Assembly (NCBI GenBank): GCA_006226685.1
Contig: SBGG01000020.1
Location: forward strand, 1-64,000
Reading direction: 5' to 3'
Origin: Sphingomonadales bacterium
GTDB taxonomy: Bacteria; Pseudomonadota; Alphaproteobacteria; Sphingomonadales; Sphingomonadaceae
Length of the DNA stretch: 64,000 nucleotides
Below are positions 16,392 through 25,054 of the stretch, piece after piece. Both the position numbers and the translations under genes were made by a program. Position 1 is the stretch's first letter; each line of letters opens with the position of its first letter. The notes under the pieces are model-generated. The model saw only the letters and a program-made list of their open reading frames with translations. It had not been told where the DNA came from and made no database searches.

Positions 16392-17930
16392 ATGGCCTCT
16401 TTGCTTCCGCACAATGTCAGCGACGCCTCTTTTCGCAAGGCGCTGACCGAATTTCGCTCGATCCTGGGCAACCAATGGGTGCTGGACAGCGAGGAAGACC
16501 GGCTCAGCTATCTCGACCCCTATGCGATGGGCGACGGCAGCAACCATGACTGCTCCGCCATTCTGGCCCCCTCCTCGACCGAGGAAGTGCAGGCGATCGT
16601 GCGCGCGGCCAACACCCATAAGATTCCTCTCTGGCCGTTCGGGCGCGGCAAGAATCTGGGCTATGGCGGATCTTCGCCCAAGGAACGCGGCGACGTTATC
16701 CTCGACCTCAGCCGGATGAACAAGATCATCACTGTCGACGAGCAACAGGCAAACTGCCTGCTGGAACCGGGCGTCGGCTATTTCGACCTGTTCCGGCACC
16801 TCAAGGAAAACAAGATCCCGCTGTGGATGTCGGTTCCCGGCAACAGCTGGGGCAGCGTGATCGGCAACGCGCTGGACCGCGGCATCGGCTACACCCCTTA
16901 TGGCGACCATTGCGAGCAGATCTGCGGCATGGAAGTCGTCCTGCCCAATGGAGATGTTATTCGCACCGGCATGGGCGCGATGGAGAATTCCGCCTCCTGG
17001 CAGGCCTATAAATATGGCTTCGGCCCGAGCTGGGACCAGATGTTCATGCAATCCAATTTCGGCATCGTCACCAAGGCGGGCCTGTGGTTGCAGCCGGAAC
17101 CCGAAATGACGGCCAAGATCGAACTCGCCCTCCCCAAATTCGAGGATGCGGAATGGGCGATCGATATTCTCACCGATCTGCGGCGCCGCGATGTCATTCA
17201 GCATAATATCGTGTTCGGCACGCCGGTCCGGGCCGCGTCCGTCATGTCTCAGCGGGCCGACTGGTATGAAGGCGAGGGCGCGCTGCCCGATGCGGTCAGC
17301 GAAGAGATGATGAAAAAGCTCGGCCTCGGCTGGTGGAACGCAAAAATCAATCTGTTCGGCCATGAAGGCGTGGTCACGGCGCAGATCGACCTGATCCGCA
17401 AGCTGTTCGAACCGAAAATGGGCCGGGAACTGAAATTTCAGACCTGGCGCAAGGGCGATCCCGAGGAACAGTCGGCGCAGGGCATTCCCACGACCATGGG
17501 CCTGCAATGCGTCAACTGGTATGGCGGTCGCGGCGGCCATCTGAGCTTTGCGCCTGTCCTCCCCGCCGACGGCAAGCTTGCCTTCGCCTATGCGAAGAAG
17601 ATCAAGGCCTATTATGAGGAAATCGGGCAGGATTATTATGCCAGCTTCACCATCGGCCGCCGCCACATCAACAATGTCAGCCTGATCCTCTATAATCGCG
17701 ACGACCCGGCGATGGTCGAGCGGGCGGACAAGCTGTATCGCCATCTTCTGGCCGAAGCCGCCAGTCAGGGTTTCGCCGAATATCGCGGCCATATCTCCTA
17801 TATGGATGCGGTTGCGGAAACCTATAATTTCGGGGGCAATGCGCTGCGCACGCTCAACAATCGCGTCAAGGCATGCCTCGATCCCAATAATATCATAGCG
17901 CCGGGCCGCAACGGTATCGGCAGCCGTTAA
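16392..17930 (+). CDS. VAO/PCMH-family FAD oxidoreductase (4-cresol dehydrogenase / eugenol hydroxylase flavoprotein type)
   Basis: This 512-residue protein has an N-terminal PP-loop FAD-binding domain (WPFGRGKNLGYGGSSP, then SVPGNSWGSVIGNALDRGIGYTPYGDH) and the C-terminal cap domain of vanillyl-alcohol-oxidase-type enzymes. H383 in GGHLSFAPV is the likely position of covalent FAD attachment; 4-cresol dehydrogenase uses a tyrosine and vanillyl-alcohol oxidase a histidine, so this protein looks VAO-like there, although I could not align it formally. Family members oxidise the benzylic carbon of p-alkylphenols through a quinone methide. The next gene encodes a c-type cytochrome, so electrons probably pass to cytochrome c rather than O2. 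ATG after AGGAG. Confidence 0.87.
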   Translation: MASLLPHNVSDASFRKALTEFRSILGNQWVLDSEEDRLSYLDPYAMGDGSNHDCSAILAPSSTEEVQAIVRAANTHKIPLWPFGRGKNLGYGGSSPKERGDVILDLSRMNKIITVDEQQANCLLEPGVGYFDLFRHLKENKIPLWMSVPGNSWGSVIGNALDRGIGYTPYGDHCEQICGMEVVLPNGDVIRTGMGAMENSASWQAYKYGFGPSWDQMFMQSNFGIVTKAGLWLQPEPEMTAKIELALPKFEDAEWAIDILTDLRRRDVIQHNIVFGTPVRAASVMSQRADWYEGEGALPDAVSEEMMKKLGLGWWNAKINLFGHEGVVTAQIDLIRKLFEPKMGRELKFQTWRKGDPEEQSAQGIPTTMGLQCVNWYGGRGGHLSFAPVLPADGKLAFAYAKKIKAYYEEIGQDYYASFTIGRRHINNVSLILYNRDDPAMVERADKLYRHLLAEAASQGFAEYRGHISYMDAVAETYNFGGNALRTLNNRVKACLDPNNIIAPGRNGIGSR

Positions 17931-17953
17931 GGCACCCGAGGAGAGGAAAGGGC

Positions 17954-18379
17954 ATGACGATGCGAAATCGATTTTCCATTGCCGGCATCGCACCGGGCGT
18001 GCTGATCGCCGGACTGGCGGGCGCGATCGCGCTCGCGGGCTGTTCCGGCGGCGCCGATCCGATACCGGAGGCGCGCGCCGAGACGGCCTCGCCGATCACC
18101 ACGGCCACATTCGGTCTGGGCTCAAAAAATGAGGGCGAACGGCTTTACGGGCAGGAATGCGCGATCTGCCATGTCGGCAAGGCCACCGGCACGATGATGC
18201 TGGGCCGCCGCCTCGGCAAGGATCAGGCGGAACTGCACAAGCGCACCGACCTCGATCCCGATTTCGTGAAGGCGGTGGTCCGTAACGGCCTCGTCAACAT
18301 GCCGCCCTTTTCGCGCGTCGAAGTGACCGACAGCGAGCTAGACAAGATCGCCGCATGGCTGGCCCGGAAGGACCGCTGA
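17954..18379 (+). CDS. c-type cytochrome, lipoprotein (PchC-like partner)
   Basis: The 141-residue protein has a lipoprotein signal ending in LAGC (C30), one haem-binding CAICH (C69, C72, H73) and a probable axial methionine M116 in NMPPF. This layout matches the small cytochrome subunit of 4-cresol dehydrogenase and eugenol hydroxylase, but here with a lipid anchor. It follows the flavoprotein gene by 23 bases behind a strong AGGAGAGG site and would accept its electrons in the periplasm. Its TGA stop overlaps the ATG of the next gene by one base. Confidence 0.88.
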   Translation: MTMRNRFSIAGIAPGVLIAGLAGAIALAGCSGGADPIPEARAETASPITTATFGLGSKNEGERLYGQECAICHVGKATGTMMLGRRLGKDQAELHKRTDLDPDFVKAVVRNGLVNMPPFSRVEVTDSELDKIAAWLARKDR

Positions 18380-18858
18380 TGCTCGATCGCCGCCATCTCC
18401 TCAAATATGCGGCGGCCCTGCCGCTGACCCAGCTTGTCGGGGTTAACGCGCTATCGGCGGCGGATGGCACCGCGCCGATGCGGTTCATCGTCGACACCCG
18501 CCTGCCGGACGCCGCCCACCTGATCGAACAGGCACGGCGCGGAGGCCATCCGGTCCTCGATCCCGAGGGCGAAATCATCCGGCTGATGCTGCGCCCGTCC
18601 GATCCGCTGACCGCCCATGTAGGGTCGCTGCTCGGCCTGACCGGCTATTCCGATTTCATCCTCGCTCAGGACGCGCTGCGCGCCATGGCGCGACCGATGC
18701 GCTATGCGGCCCGGATCGATGGAACGGGACGACACATGCTGTTCGACCGGGAAGGCAGAAACGGCAAAAGCCGCACCGACACCGCAATCGCCACGCTGTT
18801 CGATCCCGCCGCCCTCATCCGCCCGTCCCATGCCACCAGTTTCGTCTGGCTTACCTGA
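18379..18858 (+). CDS. Small exported protein with twin-arginine signal, unknown function
   Basis: The 159-residue protein starts LDRRHLLKYAAALPLTQLVG, a plausible Tat signal with an AxA-like cleavage site near residue 28. The mature part has mixed charge and no cysteine pair, haem motif or membrane segment. I do not recognise the family. The start overlaps the cytochrome stop by one base (TGATG), so it is translated together with the cytochrome. A Tat signal suggests export in folded state, possibly with a cofactor or as a companion of the flavoprotein/cytochrome pair. A maturation or docking role is inference only. Confidence 0.75.
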   Translation: MLDRRHLLKYAAALPLTQLVGVNALSAADGTAPMRFIVDTRLPDAAHLIEQARRGGHPVLDPEGEIIRLMLRPSDPLTAHVGSLLGLTGYSDFILAQDALRAMARPMRYAARIDGTGRHMLFDREGRNGKSRTDTAIATLFDPAALIRPSHATSFVWLT

Positions 18859-18915
18859 CCCCTTTGAACCACGCGCGCTAAAGGGCTGCGGGGTTTTCCA
18901 ATGGAAGATCTTATC

Positions 18916-20532
18916 GTGAGCAATGTACAGTTCGACTATATCGTCATCGGCGGAGGGTCCGCCGGATCGGTGCTGGCCAACCGCCTGAGCGCGGACCCCA
19001 CCAACCGGGTTCTGTTGCTGGAAGCCGGGGGCGAGGCCAACCATCCCTATGTACGGATGCCGCTGGGCTTTCTGCAGGCACTGCGCAACCCGGAACTGGC
19101 CTGGCATTTCCATTCGGAAGCCGAACCGCATGTCAACGGACAGAAATTCATCCTGCCGCGCGGCAAGATGCTGGGCGGCTCGTCCTCGATCAACGGCACG
19201 GTGCATTTTCGCGGGCACCCGACCGATTTCGACGATTGGGCGGCGGCAGGCTGCACCGGCTGGGATTATGAGAGCGTCCTTCCCTATTTCAAACGGTCGG
19301 AAGATCACTGGACCGGCGGCAACAGGTGGCGCGGCAAGGGCGGCCCTATCAGCGTGCAGCCGGTCGATGTCTCGCGCCTGATGGCCGAGGAGGTGCGGGC
19401 TTCGGCCGCACTGCAGGGTTTCCCTTATAATCCCGATTATGACGGCGAGAGCAATGAAGGCTGCGCCGATGTGCAGGTCGCGCTGAAGAACGGCAGCCGG
19501 TGCGGATCGGCCCGTGCCTATCTCGACCCGATCCGCAAACGGACCAATCTTTCGATCATGACCAAGGCGCTGGTCAACCGCATCCTGTTCGACGGCAAGC
19601 GCGCGTCCGGTGTCGAATTCGAGCAGAACGGCACCGTAAAAACCGCGACCGCCGCGCGTGAAATCATCCTGAGCGCGGGCACCTATGGCTCGCCGCAGAT
19701 ATTGATGCTGTCGGGCGTCGGCCCCGGCGGCGACCTGTCGGCACAGGGCATCGGCCTCGTCCAAGACCTGCCCGGCGTCGGCCGGAATTTGCAGGAGCAT
19801 GTGCGCCTCGCCCATCAATATGATGCGGAACCGAAGCCGGAAAACAGCTTCGCACGCGAACTGCGTTTCGACCGCGCGGCTTTCTCGTTCCTGCGCTGGT
19901 ATCTGACCGGCACCGGCAAATTCGCCAACCAGATTGCGGCGGCCTGCATCCTCGCCCGGTCGGAAGAGGGGCTGCGCCGTCCCGACCTCCAGATCATGGT
20001 CAGCCCGGTGCGCGTGGACGCCAATATCTGGTTCCCCGGCATCAGCAAGCCGAAGAAGGACTGTTTCTACAACTCCATCTGCCTGCTGCGCCCGGAAAGC
20101 CGGGGCGCGGTCACGCTACGCGATGCCGATCCGCGGTCGGCGCCGCGCATTCAGCTCAACCTGCTGCAGAATGAGAATGACTGGGCCACCCTGAAAAAGG
20201 GCCTCGCCCTCTCTCGCCGGATATTTTCCGACGGGCCGGTATCGGAAATCGTCACCGAGGAAATCGTGCCCGGCGCCGATATCCGCACCGACGAACAACT
20301 CGACGCGATGAAGGCGCAGCTGACCGGCGTGGTTCACCATCCGGTCGGCACCTGCTCCATGGGCACGGGACCGGAAGCGGTGGTCGATCCCCAACTGCGC
20401 GTGCGCGGCATAGAAGGGCTACGCGTGGCCGATGCCTCGGTGATGCCATTACTCGTCGGCGCCAACACCAACGCGGCTGCGGTCATGATCGGCGAAAAAG
20501 CGTCCGACATGATCCTCGGCAAAACCATCTGA
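18916..20532 (+). CDS. GMC-family FAD oxidoreductase (alcohol/choline dehydrogenase-like)
   Basis: This 538-residue GMC flavoprotein starts with the ADP-binding GGGSAGSVLANRLS. It has the GMC signature GKMLGGSSSINGTVHFRG, the second signature SAGTYGSPQILMLSGVG and the catalytic histidine motif VHHPVGTCSMG. The GTG start has GGAAG 8 bases upstream; an in-frame ATG at 18901 is the alternative. Relatives oxidise primary alcohols to aldehydes. It lies between the alkylphenol-oxidising pair and a second aldehyde dehydrogenase, so oxidation of an aryl alcohol made by the flavoprotein fits the order alcohol, aldehyde, acid. Confidence 0.88.
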   Translation: MSNVQFDYIVIGGGSAGSVLANRLSADPTNRVLLLEAGGEANHPYVRMPLGFLQALRNPELAWHFHSEAEPHVNGQKFILPRGKMLGGSSSINGTVHFRGHPTDFDDWAAAGCTGWDYESVLPYFKRSEDHWTGGNRWRGKGGPISVQPVDVSRLMAEEVRASAALQGFPYNPDYDGESNEGCADVQVALKNGSRCGSARAYLDPIRKRTNLSIMTKALVNRILFDGKRASGVEFEQNGTVKTATAAREIILSAGTYGSPQILMLSGVGPGGDLSAQGIGLVQDLPGVGRNLQEHVRLAHQYDAEPKPENSFARELRFDRAAFSFLRWYLTGTGKFANQIAAACILARSEEGLRRPDLQIMVSPVRVDANIWFPGISKPKKDCFYNSICLLRPESRGAVTLRDADPRSAPRIQLNLLQNENDWATLKKGLALSRRIFSDGPVSEIVTEEIVPGADIRTDEQLDAMKAQLTGVVHHPVGTCSMGTGPEAVVDPQLRVRGIEGLRVADASVMPLLVGANTNAAAVMIGEKASDMILGKTI

Positions 20533-22407: not shown

Positions 22408-22890
22408 ATGGCTTATGATCTCATGATAAACGGCCAGCCCAGACGGGTGAGCGCCACCGAGGACAAACCCCTGCTTTGGGTATTGCGCGAGGATCTCGAC
22501 ATGCCCGGCACGAAATTTGGCTGTGGCGCGGGTCTGTGCGGCGCATGCACCGTGCATGTCGACGGCATGGCGATGCGATCCTGTCAGCTGCCCATCGCCG
22601 AGGCGGTGGGCAAGACAATCACGACGATCGAACATGTCGCCTCCACCCCGCAGGGCAAGGCGATCAGCGAAAGCTGGGTGGCGCTGGACGTGCCGCAATG
22701 CGGCTATTGCCAGGCAGGCCAGATCATGTCGGCCACGGCCCTCCTCAGCGAAAATCCGCAACCCAGCGATGAAGAAATAGAATCGGCGATGAGCGGCAAT
22801 ATCTGCCGCTGCGCCACCTATACCCGCATCCGCTCCGCCATTCGTCAGGCTGCGGGTATCGATGCGAAGGAGGTCCGCCATGCAGGCTGA
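22408..22890 (+). CDS. Isoquinoline 1-oxidoreductase-type subunit with two [2Fe-2S] clusters
   Basis: The 160-residue protein is the small subunit of a xanthine-oxidase-family enzyme. Its ferredoxin-like N-terminus holds [17 protein letters not shown] plus a following cysteine, and the helical C-terminal domain holds [10 protein letters not shown] and ICRCATY; together these bind two [2Fe-2S] clusters. It passes electrons from the molybdenum subunit encoded next, whose start it overlaps by 11 bases. There is no FAD subunit, as expected for the IorAB-type two-subunit enzymes. Confidence 0.9.
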
Positions 22891-25054
22891 GCTCGATCGC
22901 CGCTTCTTCCTGAAGGCAACGCTGCTGGCGGGCGGCACGCTCGCGCTGGATCTGTCGGTTCCGCTGGCCCGCGCGGCGGGTGGTGCCCCGGCCGTGCTGA
23001 ACGCTTTCATCCGCATCGCCCCGGACAATATCGTGACCATCGGCGCAAAGAACCCCGAAATCGGTCAGGGCGTGCGCACCATGTTGCCGATGCTGATCGC
23101 CGAGGAACTGGACGTGGACTGGGCCCAGGTGCGCATAGAGCAGACCATTGCCGACCAGAAAATCTATGGCCCCCAGGTCGCGGGCGGCAGCCGCTCTACC
23201 CCGACCAACTGGTTGCCGCTGCGCAGGGTCGGCGCCGCCGCCCGCGCAATGCTGGTGGAAGCAGCCGCGCACCAATGGGGTGTCGAGGCTTCCACCCTCA
23301 CCACCGGTTCCGGCAAGGTCTTCCACAAGGCCAGCGGCCGCAGCATCCCCTATGCCGAGCTTGCCCCGACCGCCGCGACGCTACCCGCGCCGGATCCCGA
23401 GAAGGTCGCGCTGAAACCCGATACGGCGTTCACGATCATCGGTCATTCCAAAATGGGCGTGGATACCCCGGCCATCGTTTCCGGCAAGCCGCTTTTCGGC
23501 ATCGACACGACCATGCCGGGCATGGTCTATGCCGCGATCGAAATCTGTCCGATGTTCGGCGGCACGCTCAAATCCCATGCGCAGGGACTGGAAAAGAGCA
23601 TGGCCGGCGTCATCGCGACAGTGCCCCTGAACAGCGGCTATGACCCCAAGGGCCCGGCGGACGCGGTCGCCATTGTCGCCAATAGCTGGTGGACCGCCAA
23701 TCAGGCGCGGGAAGCGCTCGCTGCCGAGTGGAATCCGCCCGCCCAGGGGCTTCAGAGCACCGAAGGCTATGAAAAGGCCGCGGCGATGACGCTGGAACAG
23801 CCCCCCCAGCAATCGCTGTTCCAGTCGGGCGATGTGGACGCGGCGCTGAAAGGCGCGGCGAAGACCATCAGCGCCACCTATGGCTATCCGTTCCTCGCCC
23901 ATGGCACGCTGGAACCGATGAACTGCACCGCGCTCTACACCGATGGAAAGATCGAGCTGTGGGCGCCGACGCAGCGCCCCGAAGGCGGCCGCGACGAGAT
24001 TGCCGAGGCGCTCGGCCTGCCGCGGGAAGCGATCCTCATCCACATGACCCGGATTGGCGGCGGCTTTGGCCGCAGGCTGCTCAACGATTATATGGTGCAG
24101 GTCGCGCAGATCGCGAAGGCGCTGCCCGGTCGTCCGGTCAAGATGATCTACAACCGCACCGACGACATCAGGCATGATTTCTACCGCCCTGCCGGTTGGC
24201 ACAAGCTGACCGCCGGGCTGGACGACAAGGGCAGGCTGATCGCCCTGCGCGATCATTTCGTCTCCTTCGGCACGGACGGCCGACCGATCCGCGCGGCGGA
24301 GATGAGTCCGCAGGAACCGCCTGCCCGCCTTATCGATCATGTCGATTACGGCATGTCGCTGCTCGAAACGACGATGCCGACCGGCTGGCTGCGCGCGCCG
24401 ACATCCAACGCAATGGCCTTTACCTTCCAGTCTTTCCTCGACGAGGTTGCGGCGGCTGCCAAAACCGACCTGCCGGACCTGATGCGGACCATATTGGGCG
24501 AAGCGCGGAAACTCCCCGGTGAGGGACGCAACCCGCCCTTCGACACCGGTCGCGCCCATGCGGTGATCGACAAAGTCTGTGCCATGGCGGGCTGGGGCAA
24601 AGCCGGCGCGCCCAAGGGACGGGGCTTCGGCTTTTACTTCAGCCATATGGGCTATTTCGCCGAAGTGGTGGACATCAGCGTTACCGACGGCATCGTCAAG
24701 GTCGACAAGGTCTGGGTCGCGGGCGATGTCGGCCGCCATGTGATCAACCCGATCAATGCGGTCAATCAGGTGGAAGGATCGGTCATCGACGGTCTGGGGC
24801 AGGCGCTAGCCGGGCAGAAAATCGAACTGGTCGACGGCGCGGTGGTGCAAAGCAATTTTCACGACTTCCCGTTGCAGCGCATCGATGCCCGCCCGGCGAT
24901 CGAAACCGCCTTCGTCCTGTCGGACAATGACCCCACCGGTCTTGGCGAACCGGCCCTGCCCCCGGTGATCCCGGCGCTCGTCAATGCGATCTTCGCCGCG
25001 ACCGGCAAGCGTGTCCGCTCGCTGCCGATCACGACAGATATGCTTACGGCCTGA
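22880..25054 (+). CDS. Isoquinoline 1-oxidoreductase-type molybdopterin subunit
   Basis: The 724-residue protein starts with a twin-arginine signal ([15 protein letters not shown]), then the xanthine-dehydrogenase molybdenum-binding fold ([46 protein letters not shown] with the catalytic Glu of GLGEP). IorB-type subunits are periplasmic and oxidise N-heterocycles or aldehydes with water as the oxygen source. AAGGAGG precedes the ATG. The substrate is open: an aldehyde of the neighbouring pathway or an N-heteroaromatic are both possible. No MoCo-sulfuration (XdhC-like) gene is in the window. Confidence 0.9.

Follow-up and report, generated by a model that had tools for sequence, protein, structure and literature searches.

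A small twin-arginine protein as probable export escort of signal-less flavoproteins in cytochrome-coupled dehydrogenases of the VAO/PCMH family

How does a flavoprotein that carries no export signal come to serve a cytochrome that is exported, and what is the small protein encoded immediately after the two? The question is raised by a stretch of 64,000 nucleotides from Sphingomonadales bacterium (GenBank assembly GCA_006226685.1, contig SBGG01000020.1, positions 1 to 64,000), here called the window, whose plus strand has an operon for a 512-residue flavoprotein in which no N-terminal signal was seen (16392..17930), a 141-residue lipoprotein cytochrome c (17954..18379) and a third protein of 159 residues (18379..18858). 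An initial annotation of this DNA gave no mechanism for the third protein. What comparison of genomes supports is an export escort: as a ‘hitchhiker’ partner in the twin-arginine translocation (Tat) pathway, the third protein would carry the flavoprotein, folded with its flavin adenine dinucleotide (FAD), to the periplasm, a reading to which we give a probability of about 0.75. Only a shade less probable is the wider proposition that it represents an unnamed and widespread family of Tat escorts, unlike the known ones in its mature domain, which exports the signal-less flavoproteins of cytochrome-coupled dehydrogenases of the vanillyl alcohol oxidase/p-cresol methylhydroxylase (VAO/PCMH) family, and for which a short Tat signal on the flavoprotein itself can substitute in the course of evolution.

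Does the third gene keep company with such enzymes elsewhere? The flavoprotein set was assembled from 129 regions around flavoprotein matches and 80 named loci, the latter being the best 80 of 567 confirmed stretches in a scan with the flavoprotein alignment; 229 flavoprotein genes from 234 loci (loci are labelled L below) were counted, matches of under 430 residues or with flanks under 650/850 bases being left out. A gene for a CXXCH cytochrome adjoins 166 of the 229, near-copies included, and the third gene, recognised by profile, accompanies 139 of these 166; a Tat-type signal on the flavoprotein is present in 10, only another Tat-like open reading frame (ORF) in 7, and none of these in 10. 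For the 63 with no adjacent CXXCH gene the corresponding figures are 25, 1, 4 and 33. As there are near-copies among the 229 (L084 and L212; Sphingobium sp. SYK-6 in two collections), the genes were clustered at 70% identity, giving 68 clusters: the 48 with a cytochrome divide into 35 with the third gene, 2 with a Tat-type signal, 5 with another Tat-like ORF and 6 with none, and the 20 without into 3, 1, 2 and 14. A cruder rule, two arginines (RR) plus a hydrophobic stretch on one strand, with lysine-arginine (KR) signals and divergent copies outside its scope, finds an adjacent Tat-like ORF at 86 of 107 non-edge genes for flavoprotein plus cytochrome compared with 8 of 107 comparable antisense windows. 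In 66 of these 86 cases the Tat ORF comes after the cytochrome gene only; other placements are before the flavoprotein gene, between the two genes, directly after the flavoprotein gene, or divergent (L086, L145, L215). The ‘third’ gene that this rule called at L159 was rejected, as it appears to be a frame at the cytochrome gene there.

Asked from the side of the third gene, the answer is similar. Among 86 strong third-gene matches in a survey of 397 genomes (E ≤1.3e-8, many of the weaker rows listed being longer open frames), 81 adjoin a flavoprotein of the family: 75 are no more than 3 kb from a flavoprotein in the list, 5 have one in the fetched region and 1 is beside a second flavoprotein in L148. 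The initial annotation had suggested looking for co-occurrence of the third gene with such pairs, and had named its occurrence mostly without them as a refutation; the co-occurrence is there, and the refutation, when tried, did not materialise. What did not survive is the supposition that the third gene is a peculiarity of this locus. With which partner does it travel? Twelve Paraburkholderia loci (L255-L258, L260, L262-L264, L266-L269) and three of Caballeronia (L022, L261, L276) have flavoprotein and third gene, and no cytochrome gene was found on the same strand in the flanks fetched; the third gene therefore follows the flavoprotein and not the cytochrome. Neither an adjacent cytochrome gene nor, by profile, a third gene is found with seven actinobacterial relatives (L271, L273-L275, L277-L279) or with several sphingomonad ones, e.g., L120, L127, L138 and L143. 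Sphingobium sp. SYK-6 has three sets of flavoprotein, cytochrome and third gene (L073, L082/L208, L105/L226), at about 1.21, 3.00 and 4.09 Mb, and at L281, L282, L284, L185 and L186 there are tandem flavoprotein-cytochrome pairs with a single third gene between, as if one escort were for two enzymes.

What, then, of flavoproteins that have a signal of their own? Eleven have an N-terminal Tat-type signal (L159, L163, L164, L167, L171, L172, L174, L176, L178, L179 and L180), that of L163, for example, being MSTEISRRGVLVGSTLLGASAAISPLAHA. The call requires RR to stand more than 14 residues before the domain; L073 and L074, which had brought a first count to 13, were spurious, with RR only 12 residues before it. 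A cytochrome gene is adjacent, upstream, in 10 of the 11. The third gene is present at none of the 11, and by the home-made signal rule none of the 229 genes has both arrangements. The 11 form one clade in a quick tree (Shimodaira–Hasegawa-like approximate likelihood ratio 100), next to members coupled to a cytochrome, in most of which the Tat ORF is a separate one, and the extension that they have gained is only about 30 residues. The mature domain of the third protein seems to be dispensable once the flavoprotein is tagged. Where the third gene is missing, a short extension is all that has been gained; most simply read, the third protein would therefore provide the signal in trans.

The third gene begins at an ATG (18379-18381) that has one base in common with the TGA of the cytochrome gene (18377-18379), as had been stated initially and as is read directly from the DNA; an in-frame ATG upstream at 18355 would make the protein 167 residues long. 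Its N-terminus, MLDRRHLLKYAAALPLTQLVGVNALSAAD, is by eye a Tat-type signal, with RR at residues 4-5 and a predicted signal peptide (18379..18462, plus strand) whose cleavage is guessed to be near residues 27-28; Pfam TAT_signal gives E 0.051 and 14 bits, below its cut-off of 22.7. That the mature part belongs to no named family, as initially claimed, agrees with the searches: the window protein has no NCBIfam match and in Pfam only the sub-threshold Tat signal, and attempts to name 62 members of the family yielded Tat-signal models (Pfam TAT_signal in 21 of the 62 at E ≤0.1, NCBIfam formate_TAT in 6) and scattered weak families only, each in one or two members, the best being FAD-SLDH at 0.0029 in one. 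In a sequence search of the Protein Data Bank (PDB) the best E is 0.28 for the third protein and 0.0081 for the family profile, the latter to a Tat signal peptide. A single-protein scan of the genome contigs gave no matches, and a single-sequence search with the third protein matches in 8 of 397 family genomes, the window’s own included. At loci L001-L015 the flavoprotein and cytochrome of the family are present in all but L002, L008 and L011, L008 having the flavoprotein alone, and the third gene of L010 and L013 was recognised only on reading frames. On annotated plasmids the ‘hypothetical protein’ adjoining ten other family flavoproteins likewise starts with RR.

Is this one family, or are unrelated proteins linked by their signals? 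With RR and 24 further residues removed, the mature parts of 133 of 160 candidates, the window’s included, are still joined by phmmer into a single group at E 1e-3, so that an artefact of shared signal peptides was rejected. A profile of the mature part, its seeds chosen by the RR/KR rule, finds 154 distinct copies, preceded by RR in 148 and by KR in 5, the last being cut by a contig end; RR or KR is thus present in 153 of 154 distinct family members, and the coupled Tat-type protein initially claimed for this locus is supported. The background for the RR pattern is 33 of 270 random 57-residue stretches of flavoprotein frames. Tat-like neighbours at distant loci range, in a set of 13 rows searched with the mature profile, from E 5.7e-6 (L026), 1.4e-4 (L025) and 5.6e-4 (L196) to weaker or no similarity (L182 0.081, L160 0.13, L019 0.19, L023 0.27, L024 0.83). 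An AlphaFold2 model from the 62 unchanged sequences (mean predicted local distance difference test 80.0, predicted template-modelling score 0.73) predicts that the signal region is followed by a small alpha/beta domain. No fold is assigned to it, because the best VIA-align Z, 6.1, has unrelated rows close behind; the best Foldseek E is 0.069. Conservation in the family alignment is confined to few positions once the signal is set aside.

What is the presumed cargo? Pfam matches the flavoprotein with FAD_binding_4 (E 1.7e-30) and FAD-oxidase_C (4e-7), and in the PDB it is closest to the 8s7n-8s7w chains (E 4e-135 to 7e-134; best 8s7t, 4.2e-135), followed by 4-allylsyringol/eugenol oxidases (3e-125 to 1e-120) and p-cresol methylhydroxylase (6e-110). 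Having FAD_binding_4 and a C-terminal domain, and resembling VAO, EUGO and PCMH over its full length, it belongs to the VAO/PCMH family. We take the 8s7 chains for the structures of VAD, vanillyl alcohol dehydrogenase, described in PMC7617285, since three aligned chains vary at position 151 like the mutants in that paper. VAD, of Marinicaulis flavus, is the closest solved relative and has dehydrogenase activity; passages of PMC7617285 describe its FAD as bound to His387, its wild type as not turning over with oxygen and its P151N mutant as remaining a dehydrogenase. H383 of the window flavoprotein (codon 17538..17540, plus strand) aligns with His387 of these best matches. At the flavin-N5 loop position, in contrast to the Pro151 of wild-type VAD, the window has Asn151 (codon 16842..16844, plus strand), a natural counterpart of the P151N mutant in those passages of PMC7617285. 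Asn151 is compatible with a dehydrogenase (in the PCMH type, electrons would go to the cytochrome and the reaction with oxygen would be poor), and, because of the alignment of H383 and an asparagine as in P151N, a predicted VAO-like histidine-linked FAD in a dehydrogenase is a plausible reading of the window protein. This role of H383 had been suggested initially and agrees with the alignment; such a linkage in a dehydrogenase is already known, from VAD, as passages of PMC7617285 describe.

The cytochrome gene matches Cytochrome_CBB3 (E 1.9e-13), and its product has a lipobox, LAGC, with Cys30 (codon 18041..18043) and the haem-binding motif CAICH at residues 69-73 (18158..18172), all on the plus strand. 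As in PCMH-type systems, therefore, a flavoprotein is encoded with an exported-type c cytochrome, an adjoining predicted CXXCH lipoprotein. The initial annotation had remarked on the cytochrome being a lipoprotein, but this is usual: Sec/SPII signals are reported for BpfB of the bisphenol F hydroxylase BpfAB, with the same pattern for PchCF and PcmIG, in passages of PMC12724174. The pair itself, read directly and matched by Pfam in both genes, the Tat-type protein, its lack of a family and the histidine all stand from that annotation; the two supposed peculiarities, of third gene and of lipoprotein cytochrome, fall away.

How might the escort work? We infer here that the two proteins bind each other, that they are exported together, that the escort is then released and that the enzyme of the window is periplasmic. 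The flavoprotein, having no export signal, would fold around FAD in the cytoplasm, where the predicted alpha/beta domain of the third protein would bind it in its folded state; the twin-arginine signal of the third protein would take the complex through the Tat translocase (TatC is encoded in the source genome, E 1.8e-72) and would be cut in the periplasm; and the flavoprotein would there dock on the separately exported, lipid-anchored cytochrome, which would accept the electrons from phenol oxidation. The arrangement is that of escort and cargo in two respects, the twin-arginine signal being on the small partner and the cargo having none of its own when that partner is present.

Several observations weigh against this reading. 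Signals were called by a home-made rule and not by SignalP, and, as the profile seeds were chosen by RR or KR, the motif count depends in part on that choice. By the home-made rules 10 of the 166 genes for flavoprotein plus cytochrome have neither arrangement, and 7 have only unrelated or very distant Tat-like ORFs; 5 of the 86 strong third genes (in genomes G034, G117, G338, G251 and G371) have no flavoprotein in the fetched stretch. The self-tagged state arose once on the tree, which makes the swap a single event; Fisher’s test of exclusivity gives p 2.5e-9 when every gene is counted but only 0.069 for the 70% clusters, and an independent-pairs test of cytochrome versus export route has 6 pairs and a median p of 0.625. 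The fold matches of the model are weak. As to particular exceptions, L019, one of the 10, does have an RR-starting neighbour, rejected by the hydrophobicity rule; the adjacent Tat-like ORF called at L089 is doubtful; and the orphan of G371 is at the end of a 4.4-kb contig. That the orphans of G034 and G117 escort unescorted pairs in the same genomes is only weakly suggested. The pairs with no third-gene homologue and no Tat-type signal on the flavoprotein are L084/L212, L085, L088, L090, L206, L216, L241, L244 and probably L089. At L288 and L289 third-gene homologues stand directly beside a gene for a TonB-dependent receptor, with no flavoprotein in the fetched 8 kb.

What else could the third protein be? 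It might be an independent periplasmic accessory, a stability or electron-transfer subunit, with the signal peptide of the cytochrome exporting the flavoprotein too, which we hold to be unlikely. BpfAB has been proposed to be periplasmic under guidance of the BpfB signal (passages of PMC12724174), and a third protein with its own signal should be exported in any case. Left unexplained, however, are the Tat type of that signal and the lack of a third gene beside self-tagged flavoproteins, and the Paraburkholderia loci keep the third gene with no cytochrome gene adjacent. Furthermore, since chains pass through Sec unfolded and the cytochrome receives its haem outside, it could not easily take along a FAD protein that has already folded. 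A periplasmic factor that matures the flavoprotein, by helping FAD to attach or the flavoprotein to assemble with the cytochrome, would suit the operon coupling and small size; it is a still less probable candidate, as the self-tagged clade manages without the third protein, as VAD produced in E. coli contains FAD and can reduce a dye acceptor (passages of PMC7617285), and as purified BpfAB is active (passages of PMC12724174), a third protein being mentioned in neither set of passages, though the constructs were not checked in full. That the third protein binds or senses a ligand in the periplasm in connection with the pathway we regard as very improbable. The best structural match of the predicted model is one lobe of ribose-binding protein (7qsq_C, Z 6.1, 3.4 Å over 102 residues), and two orphan copies adjoin TonB receptors; but a Z of about 6.1 is common without true kinship, the conserved positions outside the signal are few, and the genomic tie is to the flavoprotein.

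The surroundings of the operon are also partly conserved. In the window an MFS transporter and a TauE-type protein are encoded upstream, and a GMC oxidoreductase (18901..20532, plus strand; Pfam GMC_oxred_N/C) and an aldehyde dehydrogenase downstream. The GMC oxidoreductase adjoins the triplet in L003, L004, L005, L006, L007 and L009, and flavoprotein plus cytochrome in L010; L003 and L004, both Novosphingobium plasmids, keep the order flavoprotein, cytochrome, third gene, GMC oxidoreductase and aldehyde dehydrogenase, with the MFS gene upstream. Some 3.5 kb downstream in the window, at 22408-25054 (plus strand), a [2Fe-2S] subunit with no evident signal and a molybdopterin-binding subunit with a Tat-like start are likely to form a second pair of hitchhiker and Tat-tagged partner, of a type already known from aldehyde oxidoreductases.

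Why does it matter? p-Cresol methylhydroxylase has been known as periplasmic since 1985 (Hopper 1985, as cited in PMC12724174) with a flavoprotein that has no predicted signal, and the 2025 paper, in its passages on BpfAB of Sphingobium yanoikuyae DN12, another flavoprotein-cytochrome pair, credits the localization of BpfA, likewise without predicted signal, to the signal peptide of the cytochrome (PMC12724174). Like the window’s pair, PchF/PchC combines a signal-less flavoprotein with an exported cytochrome, in the periplasm (passages of PMC12724174); unlike PchF, the window flavoprotein is nearer VAD and eugenol oxidase and is predicted to use His, not Tyr, for FAD. In the DN12 numbering orf5018 is the cytochrome gene and orf5016 bpfD1, and orf5017 between them goes unmentioned in the main text of PMC12724174. 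On a plasmid of another S. yanoikuyae strain, SJTF8 (L018), there are two clusters of flavoprotein, cytochrome, third gene and hydrolase with the same layout, the flavoprotein being 41% identical to the window’s, and we infer that the unmentioned DN12 ORF is the third gene. The pch operon of P. putida holds an extra gene, pchX, with no known function. In titles and abstracts a literature search found no link between the VAO/PCMH family and a Tat escort, which is weak evidence, most subscription journals being outside its scope; one review contains both ‘vanillyl alcohol oxidase’ and ‘twin-arginine’ (PMC12224317), and the main text of the VAD paper has neither ‘signal peptide’ nor ‘periplasm’ (PMC7617285). 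If the escort reading is true, the family would account for the way in which enzymes of the p-cresol methylhydroxylase type, with a flavoprotein that lacks a tag and yet is periplasmic, are exported; a single deletion would suffice to test export in a large class of enzymes that oxidise lignin, cresol and bisphenol compounds; and periplasmic use of such enzymes in other hosts would need the third gene or a grafted Tat signal.

How does the proposed escort compare with those already known? MelC1, the caddie of Streptomyces tyrosinase, is likewise small and has a Tat signal, and it carries an enzyme with no signal, there a copper enzyme; its mature part is unrelated, and its similarity to the family profile is limited to the signal region (E 0.071). 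Gluconate_2-dh3, the Pfam family of the gamma subunit of FAD glucose dehydrogenase, matches neither the window protein at E ≤1 nor the 62 members at E ≤0.1, which leaves room for distant homology. Hydrogenases and formate dehydrogenases (passages of PMC10924467) and PaoABC (abstract of PMC4273604) are further hitchhiker precedents. FAD glucose dehydrogenase differs, according to passages of PMC6719666, in that the enzyme carried is of the GMC type and has a 3Fe-4S cluster, in that its gamma subunit has been crystallised in the complex, and in that the mature part of this subunit consists of five alpha-helices, whereas the third-protein model has predicted strands as well as helices. Its organisation is nevertheless like that of the window: a 168-residue Tat-signal protein made with FAD catalytic and cytochrome subunits, acting as Tat hitchhiker for the FAD subunit that works with the cytochrome, and regarded as needed for the folding and secretion of that subunit (passages of PMC6719666). 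If the third protein is indeed an escort, a new protein family would join these known Tat escorts.

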